From: Acetobacteraceae bacterium
GTDB lineage: Bacteria; Pseudomonadota; Alphaproteobacteria; Acetobacterales; Acetobacteraceae
Assembly (NCBI GenBank): GCA_004843165.1
Contig: CP039459.1
Coordinates: forward strand, 747,501-811,500
Direction of reading: 5' to 3'
DNA length: 64,000 nt
The first letter of the stretch is position 1. Each line of letters opens with the position of its first letter. This document shows positions 1-24,278 of this stretch, piece after piece. The notes beneath the pieces are model-generated. The model was not told where the DNA came from. It did not search any database and saw only the letters and a program-made list of their open reading frames with translations. The position numbers and the translations under genes are program-made.

Positions 1-76
1 GTGTCCCGGCCTCCCCCAAACCAAAATGTAAATCCTCTTTCTCCCCGACAGGGATACCTTGCTGACCGTCTAACAT
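1..76 (-). CDS. hypB: HypB GTPase part, 5' end only (runs off the window)
   Basis: Reading leftwards from an ATG at 76, the frame starts MLDGQQGIPVG and continues EKEDLHFGLGEAGT up to the window edge. E. coli HypB has EEGDLHYGHGEAGT just before its GTPase core, so this is the linker that precedes the nickel-incorporation GTPase. It is in the same reading frame as the His-rich HypB N-terminus at 92..385, separated only by one TAA codon (94..92) and five further codons. An AAGGG lies 12 bases before the ATG and could allow separate initiation. The GTPase domain itself is outside the window. HypB delivers nickel to hydrogenase together with HypA. Confidence 0.75.
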   Translation of the reverse strand, partial: MLDGQQGIPVGEKEDLHFGLGEAGT

Positions 77-91
77 TTTTAACAGAAACCC

Positions 92-385
92 TTATCTGTG
101 GTGGTGTGCTTCGTCTTCAAGATGTCTTTTGGCATCTTGAGAAAGATTCTCACCATGCGCATGGAAATGATCCCCATGCGTGTGGATATGAATCTGAACA
201 CCTTCTGGCAAACCGCCATGGGTATGAATATGCACATGATGATGAGAAGCCTCTTCCCCCTCATGCTGATGGGCATGTTCCCCATGATGCTCATGGCCAT
301 GCGTATGTTCATGGGTATGGGGATGAGCGTGCTCACGCCCCTCAATTGTCACTTCACCTTCACCGCATCCGCAAGTCGCACACAT
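92..385 (-). CDS. hypB: HypB N-terminal metal-binding segment, ended by an in-frame TAA
   Basis: This 97-residue product opens with MCATCGCGEGEVTIEG, the CxxCGC nickel-site signature of HypB, followed by a stretch very rich in His, Glu and Gly (residues about 19-97) like the metal-storage region of rhizobial HypB. It ends with a TAA at 94..92, after which the same frame continues into the conserved HypB linker. A strong AGGAG precedes the ATG, and hypA ends 28 bases upstream, so hypA and hypB form one leftward operon. The stop means HypB is either made as two polypeptides, made by readthrough, or broken. A high-affinity nickel-binding role is expected from the cysteine motif; the function of the split form is unknown. 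Confidence 0.8.
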   Translation of the reverse strand: MCATCGCGEGEVTIEGREHAHPHTHEHTHGHEHHGEHAHQHEGEEASHHHVHIHTHGGLPEGVQIHIHTHGDHFHAHGENLSQDAKRHLEDEAHHHR

Positions 386-413: not shown

Positions 414-758
414 CTACTCGATTTCCAATCGTTTTATTTGTACACCATCTTCCGCCTTCACACGAAGATTACGTCCCTCGCATTTTGGGCAGACCAGAAC
501 TTTTGGAATCAAAAGCTCTATTTCCTCTTGGCAATCTCGACACCAAGTTTCCGCTTTTTCCTCAATTAAATGTAATTTACAGCCCTGAGCCATTGTGCCC
601 TGACACACCATGTCAAAACAAAATTTTAAAGCCTCGGATTCAATACAGGAGAAAGCACCAATCTCTAACCATAGGCCCGTAATACGTTCTGCCTGATGTT
701 CTTGCGCTCTTTTCTGGATAATTTCCAGCGTTGACTCGCATAATGTCAGCTCGTGCAT
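414..758 (-). CDS. hypA: HypA, hydrogenase nickel-insertion metallochaperone
   Basis: The product is 114 residues, the usual HypA length. It begins with the invariant MHE that binds nickel and carries two CxxC pairs (CRDC at about 73-76 and CPKC at about 89-92) for the structural zinc. The sequence IGAFSCIESEALKFCFD is close to E. coli HypA. HypA works with HypB to place nickel into the large subunit, here HycE (the hydrogenase-3 homologue). The gene is divergent from hycB across a 528-base regulatory region that contains a NikR-type operator about 150 bases upstream of this start. hypB follows on the same strand. Confidence 0.95.
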   Translation of the reverse strand: MHELTLCESTLEIIQKRAQEHQAERITGLWLEIGAFSCIESEALKFCFDMVCQGTMAQGCKLHLIEEKAETWCRDCQEEIELLIPKVLVCPKCEGRNLRVKAEDGVQIKRLEIE

Positions 759-908: not shown

Positions 909-936
909 GTATGACGTTTTTATATAAAAATCATAC
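909..936. promoter_or_regulatory. NikR-type operator between hypA and hycB
   Basis: GTATGA (909..914), exactly 16 bases, then TCATAC (931..936) is a perfect match to the E. coli NikR recognition sequence GTATGA-N16-TCATAC. The 16-base core is itself nearly palindromic (TTTTTATATAAAAA). NikR is the nickel-responsive ribbon-helix-helix repressor. The site lies about 150 bases upstream of hypA and 350 upstream of hycB. No nikR gene is in the window, so the regulator is inferred. Confidence 0.8.
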
Positions 937-946
937 GCAAAAGAGA

Positions 947-972
947 CTATTGTTGTTTTTTAAGCACAATAG
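947..972. repeat. Inverted repeat CTATTGT-N12-ACAATAG
   Basis: Perfect 7-base arms are spaced by 12 bases just to the right of the NikR-type site. It could be a second operator or part of a transcript hairpin. It does not match the FNR consensus TTGAT-N4-ATCAA. Confidence 0.4.
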
Positions 973-1286: not shown

Positions 1287-1904
1287 ATGAACCATTTTAT
1301 TATTGCGGATCCTAAGCTCTGTATCGGATGCGATACCTGCATGGCGAGCTGCTCTGAAGAGCATCGTGCCGTTGGGTTAGACGATACACCGCGCCTAAAG
1401 GTCAAGCGTGATACCAAACAATCCGCCCCTGTCACGTGTCATCATTGCGAAGATGCGCCATGTGCAGAGGTCTGTCCCGTCAATGCAATTAAGCATACAG
1501 GGGACTCTATCATTCTCAATGAGAGCCTCTGCGTCAGTTGCAAACTGTGCGGAATTGCCTGCCCATTCGGTGCCATTGATATGGGGGGGAGCCATCCCTA
1601 CCATGTGCCAAAACACCATGACACAAATATGGCACTTCCATCCCCCAAAGATCCGACACCTGTCGCACCGTTTTTGGACTGGAATCCTATTGTCCGCAAA
1701 GTCGCCGTCAAATGCGATCTTTGCCATTTCACCCCTCTTGGCCCTTCTTGCATCCGTCATTGCCCGACCAAAGCCATCCGCTTGGTTGACCCAATGGATC
1801 TGCTCAAGATCAATGCAGAGAAACGCCTGAGCACGGCACTGGAATTCGGCACTTTCTCACCCTTTGACCACGCCTCCGAATCTGTGAAGGAGACTCACAA
1901 ATGA
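1287..1904 (+). CDS. hycB: HycB, iron-sulfur electron-transfer subunit of formate hydrogenlyase
   Basis: Ferredoxin-like protein of 205 residues with four [4Fe-4S] cysteine clusters; the first is CIGCDTCMASC and later ones include CHHCEDAPCAEVCP and CVSCKLCGIACP. It carries electrons from the formate dehydrogenase FdhF to the hydrogenase module. A GTG at 1281 would also be in frame, but AAGGAG at 1276..1281 sits 5 bases from the ATG at 1287, and E. coli HycB also begins MNRFVIAD, so 1287 is chosen. It opens the hyc operon, and its stop overlaps the hycC start (ATGA at 1901). Confidence 0.95.
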   Translation: MNHFIIADPKLCIGCDTCMASCSEEHRAVGLDDTPRLKVKRDTKQSAPVTCHHCEDAPCAEVCPVNAIKHTGDSIILNESLCVSCKLCGIACPFGAIDMGGSHPYHVPKHHDTNMALPSPKDPTPVAPFLDWNPIVRKVAVKCDLCHFTPLGPSCIRHCPTKAIRLVDPMDLLKINAEKRLSTALEFGTFSPFDHASESVKETHK

Positions 1905-3772
1905 TCACAGGTATCTTCGCTGATCCTTTGTCTCTATTGACGGTTGTGTTGCTCGGCTTTGCCGCCTGTGCGATTGTTGGTGGACTTTTATCCTCCTTTA
2001 AACCCATGCGCCCTGTGGTTGCTTTAGGGACACTTCTTTTCTCCGCAATCGGCGTGCTCTCTGCGAGCGAAATGCTCTTTGCACCAAAACTTTTTGCCAC
2101 ACTGCCACATCTGCATTTTCAAATTGAAGTCAGCGGCCTGCACGCTTTCTTCCTCTTAGTTGTGATGCTGAGCGGTATCTGGGCTGCCATCTATAATATT
2201 GGTGCCTTGGGCAACAAAGAAACCGGCGTTTCTGCTTGGGAAGCCTTCTTTGGCAATATGTTGCTTGCCGCTTTGAGTGCGACCGTTCTTTCCAGTGACG
2301 CGCTTTCCTTCCTTGTTGGCTTGGAAATTTCTGCACTTTCCGCTTATTTCCTTACGGTTCGTAATGAAGGTGACAAAGCTGAAAAAGCAGGACAAAATAT
2401 CCTTTTACTTACCCAGTTCGGTATTGCGCTTCTCGGCGTTGCCTTTCTGATTTTAAATGCGCATGTCCATAGCCTGCAATTTGATGCCATTCGTGCCGCT
2501 CACCTCTCTGAGCATGTGCGTACGGAAATTTTCTTGCTTGCTTTATTTGGCTTGGGTGTCTTCTCCGGCATGTTCCCATTACATGGCTGGGCACCACAAT
2601 CCCATAGCTCTGCTTCTCCGGCTTCTGCAATGCTGTTTTCATCAAGCTTGATGAAAGCGGGTCTCTTTGGGATTTTGCTTTTCGGATTAGATCTTTTGGG
2701 TGTGCCTCCGCTCTGGTGGGGTGTTCTTGTTCTTCTCCTCGGTGCCGTTACAGCCTTCTTCGGTGGTCTTTATGCCCTCCAAGAACATGATCTTCGTCGC
2801 CTTTTAAGCTATCACAGCTTAGAAAGCTCCGGCATCATCCTCCTTGGCATTGGTGCGGCGATGGCCGGTATTTCCTTGCAATTACCTTTATTGCTGGCTT
2901 TCGGGATCATCGGTGCTCTCTTCCAAATTTTCAACCATTCCCTTTTTGGGGCTGCCCTTCTGCTCGGTGCGGGTACGGTTGAAGAAAGAACAGGTCTTAA
3001 AGATATTGAAAAAATGGGTGGCCTTGCACGTAAAATGCCTGTCACAGCCATTGCCATTTTGATTGCTTTAGGTGCTATGTCCGCCCTACCACCGCTAAAC
3101 GGTTTCGTCAGTGAATGGATGGTCTATCAAGGTCTTTTCCACTTCAGTGCGGCACCTAGCTTCGTTGCACATCTGTTTGGGCCATTAATTGCTGTGGTTC
3201 TTGCTGTGACCGGTGCTTTAGCTGTGATGTGTGCAAGTAAAGTGTTTGGTGTTGCCTTTTTAGGTGCGGCACGTTCCGATGCGGCAGAGCATGTTGCTGC
3301 TGGAGGATGTTTCCAAACATTGTCTGCTTTCATTCCGGCACTTCTCTGTATTGTCTTTGGCTTGGTCTCTCCTTGGGTCATTCCAACGATTGCCAGAATT
3401 GCAGGTCTTCCTGTTCAAGAGCATGGGATTGGATCAGCACTTGTTTCTGCACCTCTCTTGACGATTTTGCTCCTTGCCTTGCCAATTTTGCCGCTTCTTT
3501 TGGCCGCTTTGTACCAAGGACACCGCCCACCACGTCGTGTCAGCGGAACAGCATGGTCTTGCGGTTATGATTATGACAAAGCCATGAACATCAATGCAAC
3601 CAGTATCGCTCAGCCATTGCGCGTCATGTTTGCACCTTTCTACGCTGTGCGTCATGCCTTTCCTCAGCCGCTTAAAAACCACTTTCATGGCAAAACATTT
3701 GTTGCTGCCTGTCGTGGGATTGCAGCTGTCGGGCTTGCTGCGCTTTTAATCATTGCCATCGCTTTCGCCTAA
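1901..3772 (+). CDS. hycC: HycC, membrane antiporter-like subunit of formate hydrogenlyase
   Basis: A 623-residue polytopic inner-membrane protein (E. coli HycC has 608). It is related to the NuoL/M/N and Mrp antiporter subunits and has long hydrophobic helices throughout. Conserved family stretches include FPLHGWAPQSHSSA, LLSYHSLESSGIILLG and AMSALPPLNGFVSEW, and it ends with the hydrogenase-type region around WSCGYDYDKAMNI. Together with HycD it anchors the peripheral arm and may couple electron transfer to ion movement. It is translationally coupled to hycB by a 4-base overlap and followed 10 bases later by hycD. Confidence 0.95.
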   Translation: MITGIFADPLSLLTVVLLGFAACAIVGGLLSSFKPMRPVVALGTLLFSAIGVLSASEMLFAPKLFATLPHLHFQIEVSGLHAFFLLVVMLSGIWAAIYNIGALGNKETGVSAWEAFFGNMLLAALSATVLSSDALSFLVGLEISALSAYFLTVRNEGDKAEKAGQNILLLTQFGIALLGVAFLILNAHVHSLQFDAIRAAHLSEHVRTEIFLLALFGLGVFSGMFPLHGWAPQSHSSASPASAMLFSSSLMKAGLFGILLFGLDLLGVPPLWWGVLVLLLGAVTAFFGGLYALQEHDLRRLLSYHSLESSGIILLGIGAAMAGISLQLPLLLAFGIIGALFQIFNHSLFGAALLLGAGTVEERTGLKDIEKMGGLARKMPVTAIAILIALGAMSALPPLNGFVSEWMVYQGLFHFSAAPSFVAHLFGPLIAVVLAVTGALAVMCASKVFGVAFLGAARSDAAEHVAAGGCFQTLSAFIPALLCIVFGLVSPWVIPTIARIAGLPVQEHGIGSALVSAPLLTILLLALPILPLLLAALYQGHRPPRRVSGTAWSCGYDYDKAMNINATSIAQPLRVMFAPFYAVRHAFPQPLKNHFHGKTFVAACRGIAAVGLAALLIIAIAFA

Positions 3773-3782
3773 GGAGAATTTT

Positions 3783-4925
3783 ATGACTGAAAAACTTACG
3801 GCCTTAGAAAATGAAGCGTTGAATGAAACGCATCATGTCGAGCATGTCGCTGATAATCTTTCTCACACCGTCTCTCATGATGTGCATCACGGGTTGCATA
3901 ACGGCTTTCAAAGCCTGCCCCATGGCGTTCAAAATGATCTGACTGACCTGATGACACTCCACCTGCATTCCTCTATGGTTTTAGGAATTGTGCAAGCTTT
4001 GTTCCTTCTTTTGCTTGCACCTTTCTTTGTCGGGGTTGCCGGGCTTATCACGACACGCATGTCGGGAGCCTCTATTGAACTCAGTGGGGTTTTTGGCCCT
4101 TATCATGAGATCTTTAAACTCTTAAAACGTCCACGTCTTGCGCCATTGACAACGGGTTTTGCCTTTAAAGCAATGCCTTATCTCTTCTTTGGGATTATGC
4201 TTGTTGCCGCTTGCGCTATACCGGTCATTACGATTGCTTCACCAATGCCTGCCATTGGGGATATGATTACTTTGATCTATATTTTTGCATTGGCACGTTT
4301 TATCTTTATCCTTTCAGGCCTGGATACAGGTAGCCCCTTTGCCATGATCGGTGCCGCCCGTGAGGGTGTCCTCGGTGTCTTGGTTGAGCCTATTCTGTTC
4401 CTCGGTCTTTGGATCGCCGCCTTGGTTGCCGGCTCTACACAGCTTGGTGCCATTGCGCAGAATGTTTTTGATCTGCCACATCACCTTGAACACCATCTCT
4501 GGCTTCCTTTGGTCATCGGCGGCTTAGCCTGCGCTTTTGCAACAGCAATTGAATCCGGTGCCGTGCCTTTCGACTTGGCAGAGGCGGAGCAGGAACTTCA
4601 AGAAGGTCCTTTAACAGAATATTCAGGTGCCGATTTTGGCATTATCAAATGGGGAATGAATCTTAAACAGATCGTTGTTCTTCAGATGTTTATCGGTGTG
4701 TTTCTTCCTTTTGGAGCCGCCACCGAACTTACCTTACCAGCCCTTGCAATTGCGTGTGTGGCTGCCTTTGGTAAACTTCTGATCGCATCCATTTTGATTG
4801 CCCTTCTATCCAATGGTGCTGCACGTGTCCGCTTTATCTTTGCGAACCGTATTACACTCACCGGTTTCAGCTTGGCCTTCCTGGCGCTGGTATCTTGGTT
4901 AGTCATCTACCCCACTTGGTCTTAA
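3783..4925 (+). CDS. hycD: HycD, membrane anchor subunit, with a His-rich N-terminal extension
   Basis: Member of the NuoH/HycD family, 380 residues, against 307 in E. coli. The core matches the family: LSGLDTGSPFAMIGAAREGVLGV and PFDLAEAEQELQEGPLTEYSG are diagnostic. The ATG at 3783 is preceded by AAGGAG, so it is preferred to an upstream in-frame ATG at 3753 that lies inside hycC. The first 62 or so residues have no counterpart in E. coli HycD; they are hydrophilic and contain 11 histidines (for example ETHHVEHV and HDVHHGLHN) before the first membrane helix. This tail may bind metal or may simply be a lineage-specific addition. Confidence 0.93.
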   Translation: MTEKLTALENEALNETHHVEHVADNLSHTVSHDVHHGLHNGFQSLPHGVQNDLTDLMTLHLHSSMVLGIVQALFLLLLAPFFVGVAGLITTRMSGASIELSGVFGPYHEIFKLLKRPRLAPLTTGFAFKAMPYLFFGIMLVAACAIPVITIASPMPAIGDMITLIYIFALARFIFILSGLDTGSPFAMIGAAREGVLGVLVEPILFLGLWIAALVAGSTQLGAIAQNVFDLPHHLEHHLWLPLVIGGLACAFATAIESGAVPFDLAEAEQELQEGPLTEYSGADFGIIKWGMNLKQIVVLQMFIGVFLPFGAATELTLPALAIACVAAFGKLLIASILIALLSNGAARVRFIFANRITLTGFSLAFLALVSWLVIYPTWS

Positions 4926-4944
4926 TTAAATTACAGAGGCAATA

Positions 4945-6648
4945 ATGATGAATATACGTAAAGGCCAAACACATGTTGACCGGTTGAGGGAAGATTTTCC
5001 CTCTGCCATCCTCGGTGTTGAATGGCAAACAGAAACACAGCTTACTGTTGATGTAAAAGTCAACGCTCTGCCAGATGTTGTGGAATCTCTCTATTATAAA
5101 CAAGGCGGCTGGCTTCCTGTTCTTTTTGGGAATGACGAGCGCACGCTTTGCGGTAACTATGCCATTTATTACGTCATCTCTTTTGAAGATGACGATCCAT
5201 GCTGGCTCACAGTCAGAACAGAAGTGGATCCCGTTTCTTTGGAATTCCCTTCCGTCACAATGAAAGTTCCTGCCGCTGTTTGGGGTGAGCGTGAATTGCG
5301 TGACATGTATGGCTTGGTCCCTGTCGGCCTGCCAGATGAGCGCCGTTTGGTTCTACCAGATGATTGGCCAGATGGACTCTATCCATTACGTAAAGATGCG
5401 ATGGATTACCGTCAGCGCCCTGCCCCTGTTTCCGATCAGGAAACCTACGAATTCCGTAGCACGGCAAGCGAAAAATCCAACATTGTGCCAATCGGCCCTT
5501 ACCATATCACTTCTGACGAACCTGGACATTTCCGTCTTTTCGTTGATGGCGAGAACATTGTTGATGCGGATTACCGTCTCTTCTACGTTCACCGTGGCAT
5601 GGAAAAACTTGCTGAAACCCGCATGGGTTACAACGAGGTGAGCATGCTTGCTGACCGTGTTTGCGGTATTTGCGGCATGACCCATAGTGTCGGTTATTGT
5701 ACGGCTGTTGAAAATGCGATGGGGCTTCCTGTGCCGGAACGTGCACAGATGATCCGTACCATTCTCCTTGAGGTGGAACGTCTGCATTCCAACTTATTGA
5801 ATGTGGGACTAGCCTGCCATAACGTCGGTTTCCATGTCGGCTTTATGAAGGTCTTCACCATTCGTGAGCATGCCATGAAAATGGCTGTTATCTTAACAGG
5901 TGGCCGTAAAACCTACTGTATGAATCTCATTGGCGGTGTCCGTCGTGATATTCTTAAAGAAGAACGCCTCGAAACTATCCGCCTCATCCGCCTGATGCGT
6001 AAGGAGCTTAATGATATTTTAGATATCATTATGAGCACCTCCAACATCGAACAGCGTACAAAAGGCATCGGTATCTTGGATAAACAGGTTGCCCGTGACT
6101 ACAGTAACGTTGGCCCTATGATGCGTGGCAGTGGCTGGGCAAGAGATGTTCGTGTAAACCACGATGTTCTCAGCTACAGAAAGCTCCCTGTTGAAATCAT
6201 GGTTGAAGATGGCTGTGACGTCTATGCACGTGTCAAAGTGCGTATTCGTGAGGTTTTGAACTCCTTTGACCAGATTGAATTCGGCTTGGATAATATGCCT
6301 AACGGCGATATCCTGCTTGAAGGCTTTACCTACAAACCACATAAATTTGCATTGGGTTACACCGAAGCACCTCGTGGTGAAAATGTTCACTGGGCAATGA
6401 CAGGGGATAATCAAAAATTGTTCCGCTGGAGATGCCGTGCGGCAACCTACTCCAACTGGCCAACCTTGCGTTATATGTTACGTGGAAACACCGTTGCAGA
6501 TGCGCCATTGATCGTTGCTAGCCTTGATCCTTGCTACTCCTGTACTGACCGTATGACCATCGTTGATGTGCGTAAAAACAGTTCAGTGACAGTGCCTTAT
6601 AAAGAGATCGAGCGTTACGCTATTGATCGTAAAAATAAGCCTTTCTAA
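4945..6648 (+). CDS. hycE: HycE, [NiFe]-hydrogenase large subunit of formate hydrogenlyase
   Basis: A 567-residue fusion of a NuoC-like domain (residues about 1-170, containing VWGERELRDMYGLVP) and a NuoD/[NiFe] large-subunit domain, as in E. coli HycE (569). The nickel-binding cysteine pairs are RVCGIC (Cys240 and Cys243) and DPCYSC (Cys530 and Cys533). The maturation protease HycI should cut after Arg536 in CTDR, removing a 31-residue tail that begins MTIVDVR. Two adjacent ATGs (4945 and 4948) are possible starts; AGAGG at 4935..4939 is better spaced for 4948. It catalyses proton reduction to H2. Confidence 0.97.
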   Translation: MMNIRKGQTHVDRLREDFPSAILGVEWQTETQLTVDVKVNALPDVVESLYYKQGGWLPVLFGNDERTLCGNYAIYYVISFEDDDPCWLTVRTEVDPVSLEFPSVTMKVPAAVWGERELRDMYGLVPVGLPDERRLVLPDDWPDGLYPLRKDAMDYRQRPAPVSDQETYEFRSTASEKSNIVPIGPYHITSDEPGHFRLFVDGENIVDADYRLFYVHRGMEKLAETRMGYNEVSMLADRVCGICGMTHSVGYCTAVENAMGLPVPERAQMIRTILLEVERLHSNLLNVGLACHNVGFHVGFMKVFTIREHAMKMAVILTGGRKTYCMNLIGGVRRDILKEERLETIRLIRLMRKELNDILDIIMSTSNIEQRTKGIGILDKQVARDYSNVGPMMRGSGWARDVRVNHDVLSYRKLPVEIMVEDGCDVYARVKVRIREVLNSFDQIEFGLDNMPNGDILLEGFTYKPHKFALGYTEAPRGENVHWAMTGDNQKLFRWRCRAATYSNWPTLRYMLRGNTVADAPLIVASLDPCYSCTDRMTIVDVRKNSSVTVPYKEIERYAIDRKNKPF

Positions 6649-6660
6649 GCGGAGTCCCTC

Positions 6661-7206
6661 ATGCTGAAACTGATTAAAGACACCTTTACGAAAAAGGCTG
6701 TTACAACCCATTATCCGGAAAAACCTTTTGAAGTTGTCCCCAACTTCAGAGGGAAACCCGACTATAAATCCAATCAATGCATCTGCTGTGCGGCATGTAC
6801 CAATGCTTGCCCAGCAAATGCGCTGACAATCGAAATTCACGAATCACGTGATGTCATGACATGGGCTTTTGACACAGGGCGCTGCATTTTCTGCGCACGC
6901 TGTGAGGAAGTTTGCCCAACAGGGGCTATCCGTCTTTCCGAAAATTTCGAAATGGCTGTTTGGAAAAAAGAAGACCTTGTTGAAAAGGCGGATTTCAAAA
7001 TCTGTCGTTGCGTTCAGTGCGGTGCCCCTTACGCCTCTCAAAAAGAAATCGAGTATGCAATGGACATTCTCGGCTTCGAAGGAGAGGAAAGAGAAAAACG
7101 GCGCGATCAGTTTGAAACCTGCACCGATTGCAAGCAGCAAAATGATCTGCTTCCAGCTCACCTTGTGAAAATTGATGCCTTTATCCCAACTTTGGAGGGC
7201 AAGTAA
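6661..7206 (+). CDS. hycF: HycF, NuoI-like 2x[4Fe-4S] ferredoxin subunit
   Basis: 181 residues, against 180 in E. coli. Two classical ferredoxin motifs, [12 protein letters not shown] and [12 protein letters not shown], hold two [4Fe-4S] clusters; the C-terminal half adds further cysteine pairs (CRCVQC and CTDCKQ) as in E. coli HycF. It passes electrons from HycB to HycG. A GGAG precedes the ATG, and the stop shares one base with the hycG start (TAATG). Confidence 0.95.
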
Positions 7207-8030
7207 TGACTCAGATATTGACCAGTGCGAGCTCCCAGCATCTTGTTGGGCCTCGTGATGAAAACGGCTTGCCTACACCGATCACCCTTGATCAGAGCAT
7301 GGAAAAGCTAAAATCGGTTTTGCTTAAAAGCATTCGCCGTTCTGCTTATGTTTATCGTGTGGATTGTGGAAGCTGTAACGGGTGCGAAATTGAGTTTTTC
7401 TCAACCATCACCCCGATGTTTGATGCTGAACGTTTCGGTATCAAACTCGCGGCCTCTCCGCAGCATGCTGACATTTTGGCCTTTAGTGGTGCCTTAACAC
7501 GTGCAACACGTGTGCCTGCACTTCGTGCTTATAATGCGGCACCAGATCCAAAAATCTGCCTATCTTATGGCGCTTGCGCCATTTCAGGGGGTATTTTCCA
7601 TGATCTATACTGCGTTTGGGGTGGTTTGAATAAGATTGTTCCGATTGATCTCTACATTCCTGGATGCCCGCCAACACCTGCCGCCTTTATCTATGGTTTT
7701 GCATTGGCTTTGGGGATGCTTGATCAAAAGCTTAAAGGCAAACATGACGATGAGACCCAAAATCTGAATGGGGCTCAGCTTCAACATCCTGAATTCCCGC
7801 AAGCTTTGCGAGTCTTGCTCGAACGTGAAGCACGCCGTCTCGCAGGTTACCGTTATGGCAAGCAAATTGCAGATAAATTCATGCAGATTGCGAGTGAGAA
7901 TAGTCCAAAATCATTTGAGCAACGTATTGCAGCTTATTTAGAACAAGAAGCTGATCCACGCCTCGGCGATATTATGGGCCATCTCATGGTCATTTTTGAG
8001 CGTGCACAAAACGGAGAGTACCGTTTATGA
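7206..8030 (+). CDS. hycG: HycG, hydrogenase small subunit (NuoB-like)
   Basis: 274 residues, against 255 in E. coli. It carries the NuoB-type proximal [4Fe-4S] ligands: CGSCNGCE, the cysteine in SYGAC and the cysteine in IPGCPPTPA. It binds next to HycE and passes electrons to the nickel site. The N-terminus is about 10 residues longer than in E. coli before the shared [11 protein letters not shown]. Start and stop overlap both neighbours (1 base with hycF, 4 bases with hycH), which indicates tight translational coupling. Confidence 0.95.
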
Positions 8031-8443
8031 CAACCCAACCGGCTCGGGTCGTATTTTACGCCCTGGGCCGCAAATTTGTGCAGGAAAAGAAAGCTGGTCC
8101 TAAAGCACAACAGTTGATTTATTATACGCTTGCGATCGGTCACCACATTGGGGTGATCGATTGTCTTGATGAAAGACTTTCAATCCCTCTTTCCGACTAT
8201 AAAGGCTGGATTGAAAAACTACCGGAAGGCAAAAAAGCCCGCCAGAAGTTTGAAGGACTCCTCAAATTTGGGGAAATTACGATTGATAGCACCCATACAC
8301 ATCTTTTGGCGCTGGCACTTGACCGTGCCCTCGACAAAATGAGTGAAGCGGAAAAAGGCTGGAGTGAAAAACTCATTGAGCTTTTAGGAATGATTGAAGC
8401 AGAACCTGCTATTTATCTAATGGTTCGGAGACAAAATGGTTAA
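8027..8443 (+). CDS. hycH: HycH, formate hydrogenlyase maturation protein
   Basis: 138 residues with the HycH pattern [16 protein letters not shown] near the middle and IYLMVRR at the end, close to E. coli HycH (136). In E. coli HycH is needed for hydrogenase-3 assembly and is thought to help process HycE; its biochemical activity is not settled. It overlaps hycG by 4 bases and hycI by 8. Confidence 0.93.
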
Positions 8444-8906
8444 TGTTTTACTCTGTGTCGGAAATTGCATGATGGGCGATGACGGCGCAGGCCCGCTTTT
8501 GGCAGAACTTTGTGAAGCCAACAAGCCAGATGGATGGGAAATCATTGACGGGGGCGCAGCGCCTGAAAATGAAATTTACTACGTCAAAGAGCTAAAGCCT
8601 GAGAAACTTGTCATTGTCGATGCAACTCAGATGGGCCTTCCCCCTGGAGAGACTCGCATTATTGATGAAAAAGATATCGCAGAAATGTTTATGGCGACGA
8701 CTCATAATCTCCCCCTGACCTTTCTGATCGAACAGCTTCGAGAGGCGGTGCAGGATATTACCTTTATCGGTATTCAACCTACTGCTGTTGCCTTTTACGA
8801 ACCTGTTTCAGAACCTGTTAAAAAGGCCGTTGAAGTGCTCCACCAGCGCCTCTCCAAATGGGAGAATAACGGCCATTACGAAAAGCTGGTTCTTGCTTCT
8901 TCGTGA
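8436..8906 (+). CDS. hycI: HycI, maturation endopeptidase for HycE
   Basis: 156 residues, the same length as E. coli HycI. It opens VLLCVGNCMMGDDGAGP, the nickel-sensing start of the hydrogenase maturation protease family, with the metal-binding acidic residues in GDD and in IVDATQMG. The THNLPL motif is also conserved. It removes the C-terminal tail of HycE after nickel insertion. It is the last gene of the hyc operon; no clear terminator follows. Confidence 0.95.
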   Translation: MVNVLLCVGNCMMGDDGAGPLLAELCEANKPDGWEIIDGGAAPENEIYYVKELKPEKLVIVDATQMGLPPGETRIIDEKDIAEMFMATTHNLPLTFLIEQLREAVQDITFIGIQPTAVAFYEPVSEPVKKAVEVLHQRLSKWENNGHYEKLVLASS

Positions 8907-9158: not shown

Positions 9159-9686
9159 ATGAGCAACCGGTTTATTCTGGTCGATCCCCATAAATGTATC
9201 GGCTGCAAGACCTGTGAGATTGCCTGCGTCGTGGCCCACAGAGAAGACCCTGATATGGAAGACGTCAATGTTGGGGATTTCACCCCACGCATTCACGTTC
9301 TTGAAGCAGGTAAAATCACAGCCGCAGTGACTTGCCGTCAATGCCTCGATTCCCCTTGCGCTAATTCCTGCCCTAATGGTGCCATTAGCCGTGAGCAGGG
9401 CGTGATGATTGTTAACCCTGACCAGTGCATTGGTTGCCAGACATGCGTTGTCGCCTGTCCTTTCGGCGCCATGGAAGTCGTTGACTATGCATTGATCCAT
9501 CGTATGGGTGCCACAACCGTCAAGGCAAAAGCACATAAATGCAACCTCTGTCTCGGCCGCCCAGAGGGTCCAGCCTGCATCCAGCACTGCCCAACAGACG
9601 CCCTTCACATTGTTGATCGTGAGCTGCAAGCCAAAATGATCGCTGAGAAGCGTCTACGCACAGCCCTCGAAAACCCATCTTTCTAA
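9159..9686 (+). CDS. hydN: HydN, ferredoxin-like electron carrier linked to FdhF
   Basis: 175 residues, identical in length to E. coli HydN, with four [4Fe-4S] motifs: CIGCKTCEIAC, CRQCLDSPCANSCP, CIGCQTCVVACP and CNLC...CIQHCP. It belongs to the HycB/DmsB family. In E. coli hydN and fdhF form one operon, as they do here, with fdhF starting 18 bases later. It carries electrons from formate dehydrogenase H and supports its activity. A TTTAGGAG ribosome site precedes the ATG. Confidence 0.95.
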   Translation: MSNRFILVDPHKCIGCKTCEIACVVAHREDPDMEDVNVGDFTPRIHVLEAGKITAAVTCRQCLDSPCANSCPNGAISREQGVMIVNPDQCIGCQTCVVACPFGAMEVVDYALIHRMGATTVKAKAHKCNLCLGRPEGPACIQHCPTDALHIVDRELQAKMIAEKRLRTALENPSF

Positions 9687-9704
9687 GAGGAGATTATTGT
9701 TCCT

Positions 9705-11927
9705 ATGAGTATTACCAAAGGGTTTAATCCTCTAACACCAGCTTCTTCCCATGTTGATGGCGAAGAACACCACGTTTCCGTCTGCACCTATTGCGGTGCC
9801 GGCTGTAAAATGAACTTGGTCACCAAAAATGGTAAAGTCATCCGTGCCGATGCCATTGATGGTGTTACCAACGAAGGCGAAATGTGCCTTAAAGGCTATT
9901 TCGGCTGGGACTTCCTAAACGATACCAAAATTTTGACACCTCGTTTGCGTGATCCAATGATCCGCCGCCAAAAAGGTGCCCCATTTGAGATCGTCAGCTG
10001 GGAAGAAGCCATTAAGTTTACAGCAGATAAGCTTAAAGCTATCAAAGCTGCACATGGTCCAAATTCCATCATGTTGACCGGTTCTTCCCGTAGCACAGGC
10101 TGCGAAAGTAACTATGTCATGCAGCGTTTCGCACGTGCGGTTATCAACACAAACAATGTTGACTGCTGTGCCCGTGTTTGCCATGCGCCATCCATGGCAG
10201 GTCTAGAAGCAACTGTCGGCCGTGGCGCAATGAGTAACTCCATTGCCGGTATTGACGACACAGATTGCGTTTTGATGATCGGTTATAACGGTGCGGAATC
10301 CCATCCAATCGTTTTCCGTCGTGTCCTAAAAGCAAAGCAAAAAGGTGCAAAACTGGTCGTTTGCGATCCACGTTTCACTGATTCTGCTCGTGCTGCTGAC
10401 CAATATGTTCCAATCAAAAACGGTTCCAACATGGCAATCGTTAACTGCTTTGCAGCTATTTTGATTGATGAAGATCTTATTGATCATCAATATATCTCCA
10501 AATACACACAAGGTTTTGAAGATTTCAAAGAACGCGTCAAAGACTATCTGCCAGAAAAAATTGAGCACATCACCGGTGTTCCAGCAGAGCAAATGCGTCA
10601 AGCAATGCGTACCTACGCCTCAGCTGAAAACGCAACCATTCTTTGGGGTCTCGGCGTTACCCACTTTGAGCAGGGTTCTGACACTGTTGCCGGTCTTGCC
10701 GCATTGGCATTGATGACAGGTAACCTTGGTCGTAGAAGCGTTGGTGTTGGTCCTGTCCGTGGACAGAACAACGTCCAGGGTGCCTGTGATATGGGTGTCT
10801 GGCCAAGCATGTTCTGTGGCTATCAAAAAGTTACAGACGAAGCGGTTCGCCGTAAATTTGCAAAAGCTTGGAACGTTCCTTACGAAAAAATGGATCCAAA
10901 CAACGGTACGAAAATTACCGAAGTGCCACATAAAATCCATTCCGGTGAAATTAAAGCTTACTATGTCATGGGTGAAGATCCTGTGCAGACAGAAGCTGGC
11001 GGTGCTGAAGAACATTCAGCCTTTAAAGATCTGGAACTGCTTATCGTTCAAGATGTCTTCATGACAAAATCTTGCGAAATCGCAGACGTTATCTTGCCAT
11101 CCACAACATGGGGTGAGCATGACGGTGTGTTCTGCTCTTCTGACCGTGGTTTCCAACGTTTCTGGAAAGCTGTTGAGCCACCAAAGAACGTTAAACGTGA
11201 CTGGGAGATCATCAGCTTGCTTGCAACTGAGATGGGCTACCCAATGAGCTATAAAAACGATCAGGCTGTTTGGGACGAAATGCGTAGCCTATGCCCACTT
11301 TATGCGGGTATTTCCTACGAGAAAATGGGTGAGCTTGGACATATTCAATGGCCTTGCGAAACCGAAGAAAGCATGGGTTCTGACTTCTTGTTTGAAGGCA
11401 ACAAATTCCATACTGAAAACGGTAAAGCAAACTTTGTCTTCACCCCATGGCATGCTCCAGCAGAAACACCAGATGCAGATTACCCATTGGTTCTTTGCAC
11501 GGTTCGTGAAGTTGGACATTACGGTGCCCGTTCTCAGACAGGTAACTGTGCTGCGTTGGATACATTGGCTTCTGAACCAGGATTTGTTCAGCTTAATACC
11601 GAAGATGCTGCATCTTACGGCATTAAAGATCAAGAACTTGTCTATGTTCTTTCCCGCCGTGGTAAAATCATTACCAGAGCGAAAGTCAGCGACCGTACCA
11701 ACAAAGGTGCTTGCTACATGACCTTCCATTGGTGGGTTGGCGCTTGTAACGAAGTGACAGACCAAGCTGTGGATCGTGTTACCAAAACACCTGAAACAAA
11801 ATATTGCGCCGTTCAATTGGAAAAAATTGCGGATCAAAAATGGGCAGAAGCTCACGCAATTCAGGCTCACGAAGACCTCAAAGCACGTCTCCGTGGTCAT
11901 ATCGATAACGCTATCAGAGCCGCTTAA
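9705..11927 (+). CDS. fdhF: FdhF, formate dehydrogenase H, cysteine variant
   Basis: Molybdopterin oxidoreductase of 740 residues (E. coli 715). The N-terminal [4Fe-4S] ligands are Cys27, Cys30, Cys34 and Cys61 (CTYCGAGC and MCLKG). The catalytic selenocysteine of E. coli (CARVU-H) is replaced by Cys159, codon TGC at 10179..10181, followed by the conserved His160 in VCHAPSMAGL. Cofactor-binding blocks such as PVRGQNNVQGACDMG, STTWGEHDGVF and REVGHYGARSQTGNCAAL are all present. About 23 extra residues precede the cluster. It oxidises formate to CO2 and feeds HydN/HycB. A good terminator follows. Confidence 0.97.
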   Translation: MSITKGFNPLTPASSHVDGEEHHVSVCTYCGAGCKMNLVTKNGKVIRADAIDGVTNEGEMCLKGYFGWDFLNDTKILTPRLRDPMIRRQKGAPFEIVSWEEAIKFTADKLKAIKAAHGPNSIMLTGSSRSTGCESNYVMQRFARAVINTNNVDCCARVCHAPSMAGLEATVGRGAMSNSIAGIDDTDCVLMIGYNGAESHPIVFRRVLKAKQKGAKLVVCDPRFTDSARAADQYVPIKNGSNMAIVNCFAAILIDEDLIDHQYISKYTQGFEDFKERVKDYLPEKIEHITGVPAEQMRQAMRTYASAENATILWGLGVTHFEQGSDTVAGLAALALMTGNLGRRSVGVGPVRGQNNVQGACDMGVWPSMFCGYQKVTDEAVRRKFAKAWNVPYEKMDPNNGTKITEVPHKIHSGEIKAYYVMGEDPVQTEAGGAEEHSAFKDLELLIVQDVFMTKSCEIADVILPSTTWGEHDGVFCSSDRGFQRFWKAVEPPKNVKRDWEIISLLATEMGYPMSYKNDQAVWDEMRSLCPLYAGISYEKMGELGHIQWPCETEESMGSDFLFEGNKFHTENGKANFVFTPWHAPAETPDADYPLVLCTVREVGHYGARSQTGNCAALDTLASEPGFVQLNTEDAASYGIKDQELVYVLSRRGKIITRAKVSDRTNKGACYMTFHWWVGACNEVTDQAVDRVTKTPETKYCAVQLEKIADQKWAEAHAIQAHEDLKARLRGHIDNAIRAA

Positions 11928-12114: not shown

Positions 12115-13125
12115 ATGACAACTGGACAACATTTAATTTCCCTCCTTTACAGTCATATTGAAAAAAATGACGAACAACTTTTTTCAGTTGCCCTCCAAGC
12201 CGCTGCTAATGAAGCCCGCCGTGGTCATTCTAAAATTGCACAAGAGATAAAAAAACTCGTTGAAACAGCACGTTTAGAAAAATCTAAACAGCAACCTACA
12301 CCCACACCTATCATTCAGCCTCGGGGTGAACTGGCAGATCTTTTCTCAGCTTCTTATCCTCAGATACGCCTTGCTTCTATGATTTTGCCAAAAAATTTAG
12401 AGGAAAAACTTCAACGTGTTTTATTAGAACAGCGCCAAGCCTATAAATTGCAAAAATATGGTTTTTTTCCTCGAAGGAAACTTCTTTTAACAGGGCCACC
12501 AGGCTCTGGGAAAACAATGACAGCGCATGCAATCGCCGGCATGTTAAAATTACCCCTCTTTGTCATTCGTTATGAAACTTTGATGACTCGCTATATGGGA
12601 GAGACTGCATCAAAATTAAGACAAATTTTTGATGCAATCTCCGAGGTAAAAGGGGTCTATTTCTTTGATGAATTTGACGCCTTAGGTGCTCGGCGAGATA
12701 CTGGCAATGATGTTGGAGAAATTAAACGGGTTTTAAATTCGTTTTTACAATTTCTAGAAAATGACGCCTCAACCTCTCTCATTATGGCAGCAACTAATCA
12801 CCCTAAAACACTGGATACTGCCCTTTTCCGACGTTTTGATGACATTTTAGAATATCATTTTCCAACGAATGAAATTGCTTGTGATATTTTAAAACAAAGG
12901 CTTATTTCCTTTTTACCAAAAAAAATGAACTGGGACGGTATTGCACATAAATTAAAAGGACTAAGTCAGGCAGAGCTTGTTAAAGTAGCGGAAGATTGTG
13001 CTAAAGAAGCTATTCTTTCGGATAAAAAAACGATCACTAAAAAATTATTACTTAAAATTTTAGAAGAACGGCAAGAAACCCTTAAATGCCGTGGAGAATC
13101 TTTACCCTATGGCGCAAACATCTAA
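12115..13125 (+). CDS. AAA-family ATPase paired with a subtilase
   Basis: 336 residues. An N-terminal helical part (1-60) is followed by an AAA core: Walker A GPPGSGKT at about 127-134, Walker B YFFDEFDAL at about 183-191, sensor I AATNHP, and an arginine-finger-like FRRFDD. The layout resembles FtsH/spastin-type classical AAA proteins. Translation starts behind a very strong AAAGGAGGG. The next gene is a subtilisin-like protease that overlaps its 3' end. Such AAA plus S8 peptidase pairs recur in bacterial genomes, often near defence genes; the ATPase may unfold targets or control the protease. The base composition is more AT-rich than in the flanking hyc and hypF genes, suggesting a separate origin. 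Confidence 0.85.
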   Translation: MTTGQHLISLLYSHIEKNDEQLFSVALQAAANEARRGHSKIAQEIKKLVETARLEKSKQQPTPTPIIQPRGELADLFSASYPQIRLASMILPKNLEEKLQRVLLEQRQAYKLQKYGFFPRRKLLLTGPPGSGKTMTAHAIAGMLKLPLFVIRYETLMTRYMGETASKLRQIFDAISEVKGVYFFDEFDALGARRDTGNDVGEIKRVLNSFLQFLENDASTSLIMAATNHPKTLDTALFRRFDDILEYHFPTNEIACDILKQRLISFLPKKMNWDGIAHKLKGLSQAELVKVAEDCAKEAILSDKKTITKKLLLKILEERQETLKCRGESLPYGANI

Positions 13126-15643: not shown

Positions 15644-17929
15644 ATGTCTCAGGCGATTGAACTTAAAATAACCGGTAAGGTGCAAGGGGTTGGGTTTCGG
15701 CCTTTTGTCTTTATGCTGGCACAAGAGCTTGGCTTAAAAGGCCATGTTTTCAATGATTCCGCCGGCGTTACCATTCGTCTCTTTCAGCCTGAAAATCTTC
15801 CGCTTTTCTTAAAAAGATTAAAAGAGGAACTTCCTCCTCTTGCGAAAATCGATCAGCTTTCTCAAGCACCTTTTTTTTGGGACGGGAACGAACCTTGTGA
15901 TTTCAGCATTCAATTCAGCCAAGGCGGCACGGGGTCAAGCGATATTCTCGCAGATGTTGCGACCTGTTCTGACTGTTTGAGGGAAATGAACGATCCGACC
16001 GATCGCCGCTATCGCTATCCCTTCCTCAACTGCACAAATTGCGGCCCTCGCTTTACCATTATTAAAGATATGCCCTATGACCGGCCGCAAACCTCAATGG
16101 CAGGCTTTCCCCTGTGCAAAGCCTGTGCTGAAGAATATGCCGATCCAAGTAATCGCCGCTTTCATGCGCAGCCTGTTGCCTGTCCCGAATGCGGACCTGA
16201 AATTTCTCTCTTTATTTCTCATGATTTATCTATTTTTAAAGGTGAAAAAGCCCTTCAATCAGCCATTTCTGCCCTTAAAGAAGGCAAAATTCTGGCCATC
16301 AAAGGCTTAGGCGGCTTTCACCTTGCTTGTTTGGCAACAGAAGACGCACCAATTACCCGACTGAGAGAGCGTAAACATCGCCCCTCAAAACCTTTTGCTG
16401 TTATGCTGCCAAATCAAGGCTGGCTTTCCAAAATTTGTGCAGAGAATATGCTGTTCTCTGAAGTTGAGGCGCTTTTAAAATCACCGTCGGCTCCGATTGT
16501 GCTGGTGAAAAAAAACAAAAAACGTCTTCTTTCTTCCCTCATTGCACCGCACTTAGAAGAAATTGGAATCATGTTGCCGGCTAATCCGCTTCAGCATTTA
16601 TTACTTGAAGGAGTCGGCCTGCCCTGCGTTATGACTTCAGGAAATAAATCCGGCTTTGCCCCTGCTTTAAGCAATCAAGCAGCGCTAGAGCAATTAAAAG
16701 ACATTGCCGATCTCTTTCTTTTCCATGATCGAGAGATTTTAGAACGTGCCGATGATTCCGTTCTCCGTTTCCATGCACAAGGCAAAAAAGAGATTTTACG
16801 CCGAGCAAGGGGCTTGGCACCAGATGCGCTCATGGTACCGGAAGGCTTTCCCAAAGATAAAACGATCCTCGCTCTCGGCGGTGATTTAAAAAATAGTTTT
16901 TGCCTTTTACATCATGATAAAATTTTCACAGGCCCGCATTTTGGGGACTTAAATCAAGGGAATGTCTTTGAGCAATGGGAAAAAATGTTAGCGAAATTCC
17001 CAAAACTCTACCATGCCAGCCCTGAAATTATCGCCCTAGATGCCCATCCCGGCTATCGCTCGCACCAATGGGGCAAAGAGCAAACATTACCCTCTGTCGA
17101 AATTTACCATCATCATGCCCATATTGCGACCTGTTTAGGAGAAAATCACCGGCCCCTTCTAGGCGGTAAAATCATTGCGCTGACATTGGATGGGCTGGGT
17201 TATGGTGAAAAGGGCGAAATCTGGGGCGGAGAATGTTTTCTGGCTGATTACAAAAATTTTCAGCATTTGGGAGGCTTGCCGCCTGTTCCTTTACTCGGCG
17301 GAGATTTAGCCGCCAAAGAACCTTGGCGCAATCTTTTGGCGCAGTTTCATCAATTTGTTCCAGACTGGGAGAGGCTTCCGGAAGCGGAAGAGATTAAAAA
17401 ACATCCTTATCCTATCCTGTTAAATGCCCTGAAAGCCGGGATTAACGCCCCTCTGGCCTCCTCTTGCGGACGTTTTTTTGAAGCGGTTTCAGCTGCTCTT
17501 GGGATTGCCCCCCAGCGCCAGACCTATGAGGGGGAAGCCGCCTGCCTGTTAGAAAGTCTCGCCTGGCAAGCAGAAGAATGTGTCCATCCTGTAAAACTCC
17601 CCCTCAAAGGAACCTCTTTCGATTTAGAAATTTTTTGGCAGAGTCTTTTAAATTGGAAAGCCGGAAAGGCAGAAAAAGCATGGGCTTTCCATGATGCGCT
17701 TGCAAAAGGATTTGCCGATCTGGCAAAAGATTCTGCACGGAAACATCATCTCACGGATGTCATGCTCAGCGGTGGATGTCTACATAATCTTCTCTTAAAA
17801 GAACGTCTGGAAAAACATCTCCACCCTCTAAAGATCCTGACGCATTCTGAGCTTCCTTCCGGCGATGGCGGCATCTCTGTGGGACAGGCTTTAATCGCTT
17901 TGGCAAATTTGGAAAAAGATAATAAATGA
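15644..17929 (+). CDS. hypF: HypF, carbamoyltransferase for the hydrogenase cyanide ligands
   Basis: 761 residues, typical for HypF. Domains in order: acylphosphatase (VQGVGFRPF near residue 14), two zinc-finger pairs (CSDCLREMN...CTNCG and CKACAEEYA...CPECG), a YrdC-like domain (LAIKGLGGFHLAC) and a Kae1-like domain (HHHAHIATC and later SGGCLHNLLL). It makes the carbamoyl group that HypE turns into CN for the Fe site of HycE. It has no visible Shine-Dalgarno and starts 6 bases after the protease gene, so it seems coupled to the AAA-subtilase unit. Its stop overlaps the next gene (ATGA). Confidence 0.96.
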   Translation: MSQAIELKITGKVQGVGFRPFVFMLAQELGLKGHVFNDSAGVTIRLFQPENLPLFLKRLKEELPPLAKIDQLSQAPFFWDGNEPCDFSIQFSQGGTGSSDILADVATCSDCLREMNDPTDRRYRYPFLNCTNCGPRFTIIKDMPYDRPQTSMAGFPLCKACAEEYADPSNRRFHAQPVACPECGPEISLFISHDLSIFKGEKALQSAISALKEGKILAIKGLGGFHLACLATEDAPITRLRERKHRPSKPFAVMLPNQGWLSKICAENMLFSEVEALLKSPSAPIVLVKKNKKRLLSSLIAPHLEEIGIMLPANPLQHLLLEGVGLPCVMTSGNKSGFAPALSNQAALEQLKDIADLFLFHDREILERADDSVLRFHAQGKKEILRRARGLAPDALMVPEGFPKDKTILALGGDLKNSFCLLHHDKIFTGPHFGDLNQGNVFEQWEKMLAKFPKLYHASPEIIALDAHPGYRSHQWGKEQTLPSVEIYHHHAHIATCLGENHRPLLGGKIIALTLDGLGYGEKGEIWGGECFLADYKNFQHLGGLPPVPLLGGDLAAKEPWRNLLAQFHQFVPDWERLPEAEEIKKHPYPILLNALKAGINAPLASSCGRFFEAVSAALGIAPQRQTYEGEAACLLESLAWQAEECVHPVKLPLKGTSFDLEIFWQSLLNWKAGKAEKAWAFHDALAKGFADLAKDSARKHHLTDVMLSGGCLHNLLLKERLEKHLHPLKILTHSELPSGDGGISVGQALIALANLEKDNK

Positions 17930-19626: not shown

Positions 19627-19705
19627 AAGAAAGGCTTTTCAGAGCGCAGATAATTCCCCATAAAAGCGTATCTCTAAAGCCATTTCTAAGATTGAAATTG
19701 ATCAA

Positions 19706-21130: not shown

Positions 21131-21195
21131 TTTTAATCAGGATAATCGCATCATCTCACTTCATTAGAGATTTTTATCAACTGGACGGAAAAGAT

Positions 21196-23059: not shown

Positions 23060-23225
23060 TTCTAAAACTCCTTATGTCTATCCTGAGGATTATTCCTCTT
23101 TTTCGTTCTCAAGCTAGCATTGAAAAGGAAAAGGCGAATAGAGGCCTGAAAAGATTCTTTTTTTTAAACGTAAAAATATACGCCGCTCTCTTCCGCCCTC
23201 TTAGGAAATCAGCTAAAAGAAAAAT

Positions 23226-24278
23226 ATGCTAAATTATAAATTTATTCATACCAATCGGCGGGCTTTTTGCCTCCTCCTTGCCCTCATTACTTTAAATATT
23301 GCCGCTTGGATTTTAGCACTGCGTTTTTTTAGCCACTATCCAACTTTGTTCGCCTCTGCCTTTCTGGCCTATGGGTTTGGATTGCGCCATGCTGTGGATG
23401 CCGATCATATTGCGGCTATTGATAATGTCACACGCAAATTAATGCAGCAGGGGCAAGTCCCGATCGGCGTTGGCGCCTTTTTCTCCTTAGGTCATTCCTC
23501 CATCGTGATTTTAGCCTGTGCGGCTATTGCGGCGACCTCTATGGCTTTTCAAACACAAATGGGATGGCTACATGATTACGGCTCCATTATCGGGACGCTG
23601 GTTTCTGCGCTTTTTCTGCTTACTATGGCGCTCTTTAACGTCCTGATTTTTAGGGGCGTTTTTAAGCGTTTTCGACAAATCAAAAAGGGTGAATCTCTCC
23701 AAGAGTCCGATTTAAGAGCGCTGGAAAATGTGACCCCAACAGGCATAATGGGCTGGATGTACCGTTTTGCCTTTAAATTTGTCACCCAAAGCTGGCAAAT
23801 GTATCTGATTGGTTTTCTTTTTGGGCTGGGTTTCGATACAGCAACCGAAGTTGGTCTCTTAGGCATTTCAGCCTCAGGGGTTCATTCCGGCCTTTCGGTT
23901 TGGTCGATTATGATTTTTCCACTCTTATTTGCCAGCGGCATGGCCCTCATCGACAGTTTAGATAATTTTGTGATGATCGGTGCCTATGGATGGGCCTTTA
24001 AACATCCTATTCGCAAGCTCTATTATAATATGACCATTACGATGGCGAGTGCTCTGGTTGCGCTCTTTATCGGTGGATTAGAGGCGCTGAGTCTTTTGGC
24101 AGATCAATTTCATCTCCAAGGAGGTATTTGGGATTTTATCGGCAATTTAAGCGAAAATATGGGAATGGTCGGCTATAGTGTCATTGCGCTCTTTATCTTT
24201 TTCTGGATGGCCTCAACCCTTTATTATCGTTTTAAAAATTACGATCATCTGGAAATTCAGGCCATAAAAAAAGGCTAA
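23226..24278 (+). CDS. NiCoT-family nickel/cobalt permease
   Basis: 350 residues with about eight membrane helices. The NiCoT signature HX4DH is present as RHAVDADHIAAIDN (His55, Asp60, His61), together with the second motif LGFDTATEVGLLG. The family includes NixA and HoxN, high-affinity single-component nickel importers. Its position behind the hydrogenase maturation genes argues for nickel supply to HycE. The Shine-Dalgarno is weak. A terminator overlaps the stop. Confidence 0.92.
   Translation: MLNYKFIHTNRRAFCLLLALITLNIAAWILALRFFSHYPTLFASAFLAYGFGLRHAVDADHIAAIDNVTRKLMQQGQVPIGVGAFFSLGHSSIVILACAAIAATSMAFQTQMGWLHDYGSIIGTLVSALFLLTMALFNVLIFRGVFKRFRQIKKGESLQESDLRALENVTPTGIMGWMYRFAFKFVTQSWQMYLIGFLFGLGFDTATEVGLLGISASGVHSGLSVWSIMIFPLLFASGMALIDSLDNFVMIGAYGWAFKHPIRKLYYNMTITMASALVALFIGGLEALSLLADQFHLQGGIWDFIGNLSENMGMVGYSVIALFIFFWMASTLYYRFKNYDHLEIQAIKKG

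Follow-up and report, generated by a model that had tools for sequence, protein, structure and literature searches.

We analysed a window of 64,000 nucleotides from an Acetobacteraceae bacterium (contig CP039459.1 of assembly GCA_004843165.1), near the start of which hypA (414..758, minus strand) and hycB (1287..1904, plus strand) diverge from a gap of 528 bp. Positions 909–936 of the window, within this gap, hold the 28-mer GTATGACGTTTTTATATAAAAATCATAC, in which both half-sites of the published NikR operator consensus GTATGA-N16-TCATAC (PMC7055735) are exact, as is the spacing of 16 bases, and this is the single exact match in the 1,923,586-base genome. Measured to the gene starts, the site precedes hypA (start at 758, minus strand) by 150 bases and hycB (start at 1287, plus strand) by 350 bases, and we annotate it as an E. 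coli-type NikR operator (with no strand assigned) on the basis of its sequence and of the top score it receives from the weight matrix described below. The initial annotation had read the half-sites and the spacing as perfect and had placed the site in the divergent control region of a hydrogenase operon and its nickel chaperones, and both statements agree with the sequence and with the genes on either side. The same half-sites and spacing are found in E. coli K-12 in the nikABCDE operator before nikA, but there the operator controls a transporter and is located 37 bases before its start, whereas here it stands in a divergent hyp–hyc region; it is a canonical NikR operator in a new place.

On the minus strand, hypA, which encodes a nickel metallochaperone (TIGR00100, PRK03681), is followed by a hypB divided between two open reading frames (ORFs), one with the N-terminal CxxCGC motif and the His-rich part that is ended by an in-frame TAA (92..385), and one for the GTPase domain which starts at 1..76 of the window and continues outside it (L037:11831-12577), followed by hypC, hypD and hypE. 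Only 15 bases separate the in-frame stop from the next ATG, and this may mean that HypB is naturally in two pieces or that the gene was mutated recently. On the plus strand, hycB is the first gene of the hyc operon (58% identity to the Pantoea counterpart) and is followed by hycC, hycD, hycE, hycF, hycG, hycH and hycI (1901..8906), a hydN-like gene and the formate dehydrogenase gene fdhF (9159..11927), hypF (15644..17929) and, last in the Pantoea-like order, a nickel transporter gene of the HoxN/HupN/NixA type (NiCoT; 23226..24278). HypA, HycI and the formate dehydrogenase alpha subunit score over their family-model cut-offs and the HydN-like protein under its own, and the other hyc names rest on similarity to Pantoea.

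The gene order is that of a Pantoea alfalfae plasmid, with hypEDCBA and, divergently, hycBCDEFGHI, hydN, fdhF, hypF and NiCoT, and the same order is found in Pantoea sp. At-9b, but unlike in Pantoea there are extra genes between fdhF and hypF and between hypF and NiCoT. The first interval (window 12115-15637) carries an IetA/IetS-like pair, an AAA ATPase and a subtilisin-like protease modelled in PADLOC as anti-phage, and the second (window 17926-22767) three ORFs whose starts look signal-like and which match Pfam little or not at all. Identity to the P. alfalfae proteins is 72% for HycE, 66% for HycG and 65% for FdhF, and only 49% for HypA, for which the best match among the other genomes is 60%. 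The closest HycG relatives in our sample of the family (299 genomes) are about 59% identical, no HycG match was found in the sister genome at E 1e-30, and no plasmid had DNA similarity to positions 700–1300 of the window. We looked for a shared control region in Rhodovastum atsumiense (Acetobacteraceae) and rejected this candidate, as its hyf-type operon faces an Fe-S gene and fdhF and not hypA. The cluster was probably acquired in its enterobacterial form.

The operator against chance expectation

No exact site was seen in 20,000 dinucleotide shuffles of the 528 bp gap, and a first-order model with the statistics of the window gives an expectation of 0.026 exact sites per genome. Looser matching to the consensus was uninformative alone, with match counts at the background of a reversed control pattern (38 matches in the genome versus 32 for the control at two or fewer mismatches, and 491 versus 497 at three or fewer). 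Sites were also scored with a symmetric weight matrix built from 12 operators of other genomes, namely that of E. coli nikA plus 11 exact sites selected for having a NikR, NikA, NikD/E or TonB-like gene adjoining each of them (three of the 11, L110, L111 and L119, also overlap an ORF by the rule used in our script). The negatives were 20 exact sites that overlap ORFs, one of which (L092) has, at a greater distance, a gene with a remote match to NikD, while neither set included L091 and L118 (weak or ORF-overlapping), L103 and L104 (which overlap ORFs and look like operators), or seven intergenic sites without NikR, NikA, NikD/E or TonB-like neighbours. The matrix scan covered 116,670 positions of the organism's own DNA, and the whole genome was covered only via the list of 38 sites with two or fewer mismatches.

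The operator at 909–936 has a matrix score of 33.8 and is first among these 38 sites, of which five fall in the range 19.6–33.8 and none of the remaining 33 exceeds 11.3. As the matrix was trained on exact half-sites, a score for the spacer only is the fairer test, and by this measure 909–936 reaches 11.4 compared with a best of −0.7 for the 20 ORF-overlapping negatives. Three ORF-overlapping exact sites left out of both sets have spacer scores of 8.0, 8.3 and 3.7, and among the left-out intergenic sites lacking recognised nickel genes in their vicinity the highest score is 6.0. When each of the 12 training sites was left out in turn, the spacer scores ran from −13.8 (training site G754) to 13.4, with 909–936 inside this range. 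A 1-mismatch site at genome position 632614 was rejected as a chance match (it scores 5.3 and is inside a glyceraldehyde-3-phosphate dehydrogenase-like ORF).

Outside the genus we found 54 exact sites, and the neighbours of 42 of these, the 11 training sites among them, plus one site in the sister genome were checked by blastp of nearby ORFs against the nickel and hydrogenase proteins of this genome (E 1e-5). A NikR, Nik-transporter-like or TonB-like match, in some cases remote, was found within 1.5 kb in 14 of the 42 loci, and a hyp or hyc match near none of the 43. HypA matches are present in 55 of 387 genomes, and no operator with one mismatch or fewer was found in the 600 bases upstream of each of 29 other hypA genes taken from the nearest other HypA loci, among which there is one 2-mismatch site, at −547, and eight upstream regions with three mismatches as best (a HypA scan of genome contigs gave three distant loci with 28–34% identity which were not used further). 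Judged from these sequences, and as far as we have sampled, the operator at hypA is peculiar to this lineage.

NikR and further candidate sites in the genome

The initial annotation had named the absence of a NikR homologue as a result that would count against the site, and a nikR gene is present (G000:C1:1114844-1115245, minus strand). The protein scores over the NCBIfam nikR cut-off (TIGR02793) and its gene is the next one after a NikABCDE-type operon (NikA, NikC and NikE are named by family models and NikB and NikD by position). It aligns over residues 1–132 with E. coli NikR (1q5v, 2hzv; E 1.2e-39), with R3, T5 and T7, which we take to be the base contacts, and H76, H87, H89 and C95, presumably the nickel ligands, all identical in the two proteins.

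The initial annotation had also proposed a search of the genome for other sites, and four more stand clear as the remaining members of the group scoring 19.6–33.8, most of them apparently nickel-related. They are 9 to 75 bases upstream of gene starts and precede a TonB receptor gene, an OprB porin gene, a HAD-hydrolase gene that is separated from the downstream nikA by 200 bases, and a periplasmic binding protein gene, the last being a symmetric variant, GTATGC-N16-GCATAC, 9 bases before the gene (L085:2490-2517). A nickel role for the TonB receptor and the porin is probable, and the periplasmic binding protein may have one too. Our searches offered one further genome of the genus, that of the sister species, in which nikR is present and an exact site precedes the gene for the orthologous TonB receptor, so that this operator is conserved between the two species, and in which only a 4-mismatch site was found upstream of nikA. 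A 2-mismatch site which overlaps the NiCoT start codon in our window (23224-23251) has a matrix score of 10.0, no better than the background group, and was not counted as a NikR operator.

The porin and the TonB receptor linked to these sites (L084:7899, L084:9968; L045:12831) belong to different families but have a common N-terminal leader with the Cys and His motif FG[KR]xCSCxxxHxHxxxxSFAxDAV, which was found at E up to 0.001 in only these two proteins and the sister receptor among the 299 genomes of the family.

Formate control elements in the hyp–hyc region

In E. coli and Pantoea the gene order on both sides of the hyp–hyc region is the same as here and the enzymes are homologous, but that region has FhlA, HycA and sigma-54-like sites, none of which we find here. 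Sigma-54-like sites are present on both strands of the gap with 0 and 1 mismatches in E. coli and 2 and 1 in Pantoea, whereas the best −12/−24 matches in the hypA–hycB gap of this organism have 4 and 3 mismatches. A search of the genome for FhlA at E up to 1e-5 gave as its sole match NtrX, the gene of which adjoins what we read as an NtrY gene, and fhlA is not found beside hypE, unlike in the Pantoea cluster. There is no HycA match in the gap before hycB below E = 0.4 and no remnant of hycA. An FNR box was considered for the hypA–hycB gap and rejected, as the best candidate has 3 of 10 positions mismatched. Conversely, the E. coli hypA–hycA gap is without a NikR site (the best has 5 mismatches), and in the two Pantoea clusters none of the five best NikR-site windows falls in the hyp–hyc gap.

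Together these results make a good case that the hyp–hyc region is here without its usual control. The initial annotation had suggested that direct NikR control would link enzyme synthesis to nickel supply, and the absence of fhlA, hycA and the sigma-54-like sites adds to that reading a feature which it could not have seen. We infer that fhlA, hycA and the sigma-54 sites were lost rather than never received, and the order in which acquisition and loss took place is likewise a reconstruction. If so, FhlA, HycA and the sigma-54 promoters would have disappeared in this lineage and the NikR operator would have taken their place, leaving an acquired formate hydrogenlyase cluster rewired to the nickel sensor of its host, with the maturation genes, and perhaps the enzyme, following nickel and not formate; we regard this proposal as evenly poised. 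It would offer a case in which regulatory rewiring following gene transfer can be tested, with one element gained and three missing, for which the arrangement to be compared can be read in E. coli and Pantoea. If true, the nickel loading of the hydrogenase and nickel uptake would be under one sensor, and the case would help decide whether a NikR of the E. coli type has roles beyond shutting off transporters.

Possible modes of control by NikR

The site at 909–936 is best explained as a true operator for the E. coli-type NikR encoded in the same genome, and we predict with high confidence that NikR will bind here in a nickel-dependent manner. That NikR also acts on the hyp and hyc genes is strongly suggested. 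In the explanation we prefer, and which taken as a whole we consider somewhat probable, nickel-loaded NikR would grip both half-sites and lower transcription from the hypA–hycB control region of at least hypABCDE, and perhaps of hyc, in a cluster that was acquired and rewired. When nickel is short the hyp genes would go up together with those for the TonB receptor, the porin and probably NikABCDE, and when it is plentiful the hyp and nickel uptake genes would go down. The binding, the repression, the responding operon and the promoter used are all predictions.

Repression of hyp is our first choice because E. coli NikR is described as a repressor (PMC7055735), because most of the other targets look like uptake genes, because the best promoter candidate of the porin (10/12) lies across its operator, as would be expected of a repressor site, and because the −10 of the candidate promoter towards hypA is the TATGAT of the operator, as it is at the TonB and HAD sites. 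The hypA candidate itself is weak (AAAACA, 18 bp, TATGAT at 930..959, minus strand; 8/12), with its −10 in the operator half-site, and four other candidates in the hypA–hycB gap score equally (8/12), while a stricter standard promoter scan found none near the operator. Against this explanation are the distances of 150 and 350 bases from the two gene starts, compared with about 75 or less for the other operators in this genome, and the absence of the operator upstream of the other hypA genes sampled. The sign is also unintuitive for a nickel-needing enzyme, as the nickel loaders would be lowered when nickel is ample.

Alternatively, NikR may act as an activator of hyc (and perhaps of hyp) in the presence of nickel, restricting enzyme synthesis to conditions under which the metal can be supplied, as has been proposed for Helicobacter pylori urease. 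A site 350 bases upstream of hycB is in the position of an activator rather than of a blocker, and the urease genes are described as targets of H. pylori NikR (PMC7055735, PMC5385501), but PMC5385501 questions whether urease activation is direct and ties the urease site to repression of a divergent small RNA, the NikR of our organism is closest in alignment to that of E. coli, an inhibitor of its target according to PMC7055735, and the other four sites in the genome are at repressor-like distances. We consider activation rather unlikely. The H. pylori case also offers a model, in the Nrr2 small RNA beside urease, for the improbable alternative that NikR binds but that what it controls from this site is in reality an unannotated transcript within the 350-base gap preceding hycB. 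The gap is long enough to make this worth considering, and positions 1081-1290 fold somewhat better than shuffled sequences (z −2.4, with 3 of 200 shuffles as good), but a leader of hycB would explain the fold equally, and no Rfam family was found at the gathering threshold, with matches at E up to 10 falling far below it.

We consider it highly improbable that the palindrome arose by chance or serves a different regulator. The half-sites are short, 26 of the 43 exact sites checked overlap an ORF of at least 120 codons, the reversed control pattern matches 7 of 385 genomes versus 16 for the consensus (and 17 of 397 versus 39), and the site is not shared with other hypA genes. Set against this are the empty result of the shuffles, the presence of nikR and four further high-scoring sites in the same genome, and the score of the spacer, which is free in the consensus but here exceeds those of all 20 negatives and of the three left-out ORF-overlapping matches.

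The idea that NikR touches hydrogenase genes is already known. An E. coli paper of 2005 reportedly linked NikR with hydrogenase expression. Elsewhere, NikR control has been predicted for the [Fe] hydrogenase genes hydAB of Desulfovibrio desulfuricans (PMC545781), where the likeness lies in a NikR site at hydrogenase genes but the motif is another one (GTGTTAC-N13/14-GTAACAC) and the enzyme is nickel-free, and predicted NikR control of a Ni-Fe hydrogenase is mentioned, citing other work, in PMC2667541. In H. pylori, NikR is linked to nickel enzymes beyond transport, with direct activation of urease debated, and hydA/hydB had earlier been reported as nickel- or NikR-dependent, a dependence which PMC5385501, the source for both points, describes as unconfirmed, with no peak at hydA. 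Our literature search covered titles and the starts of abstracts, with most subscription journals outside its scope, and within it we found no report of NikR at a formate hydrogenlyase control region, nor of this arrangement for the formate hydrogenlyase of Acetobacteraceae or acetic acid bacteria. What is new, as far as this search extends, is to find a NikR site in the place of the usual FhlA control.

Two of the exact operators in other genomes (L098 and L110) are adjoined by genes for NikR-like proteins which keep R3 and T5, and in L098 also T7, but are without the HxH and Cys nickel ligands. These proteins are perhaps relatives of NikR that sense something else.
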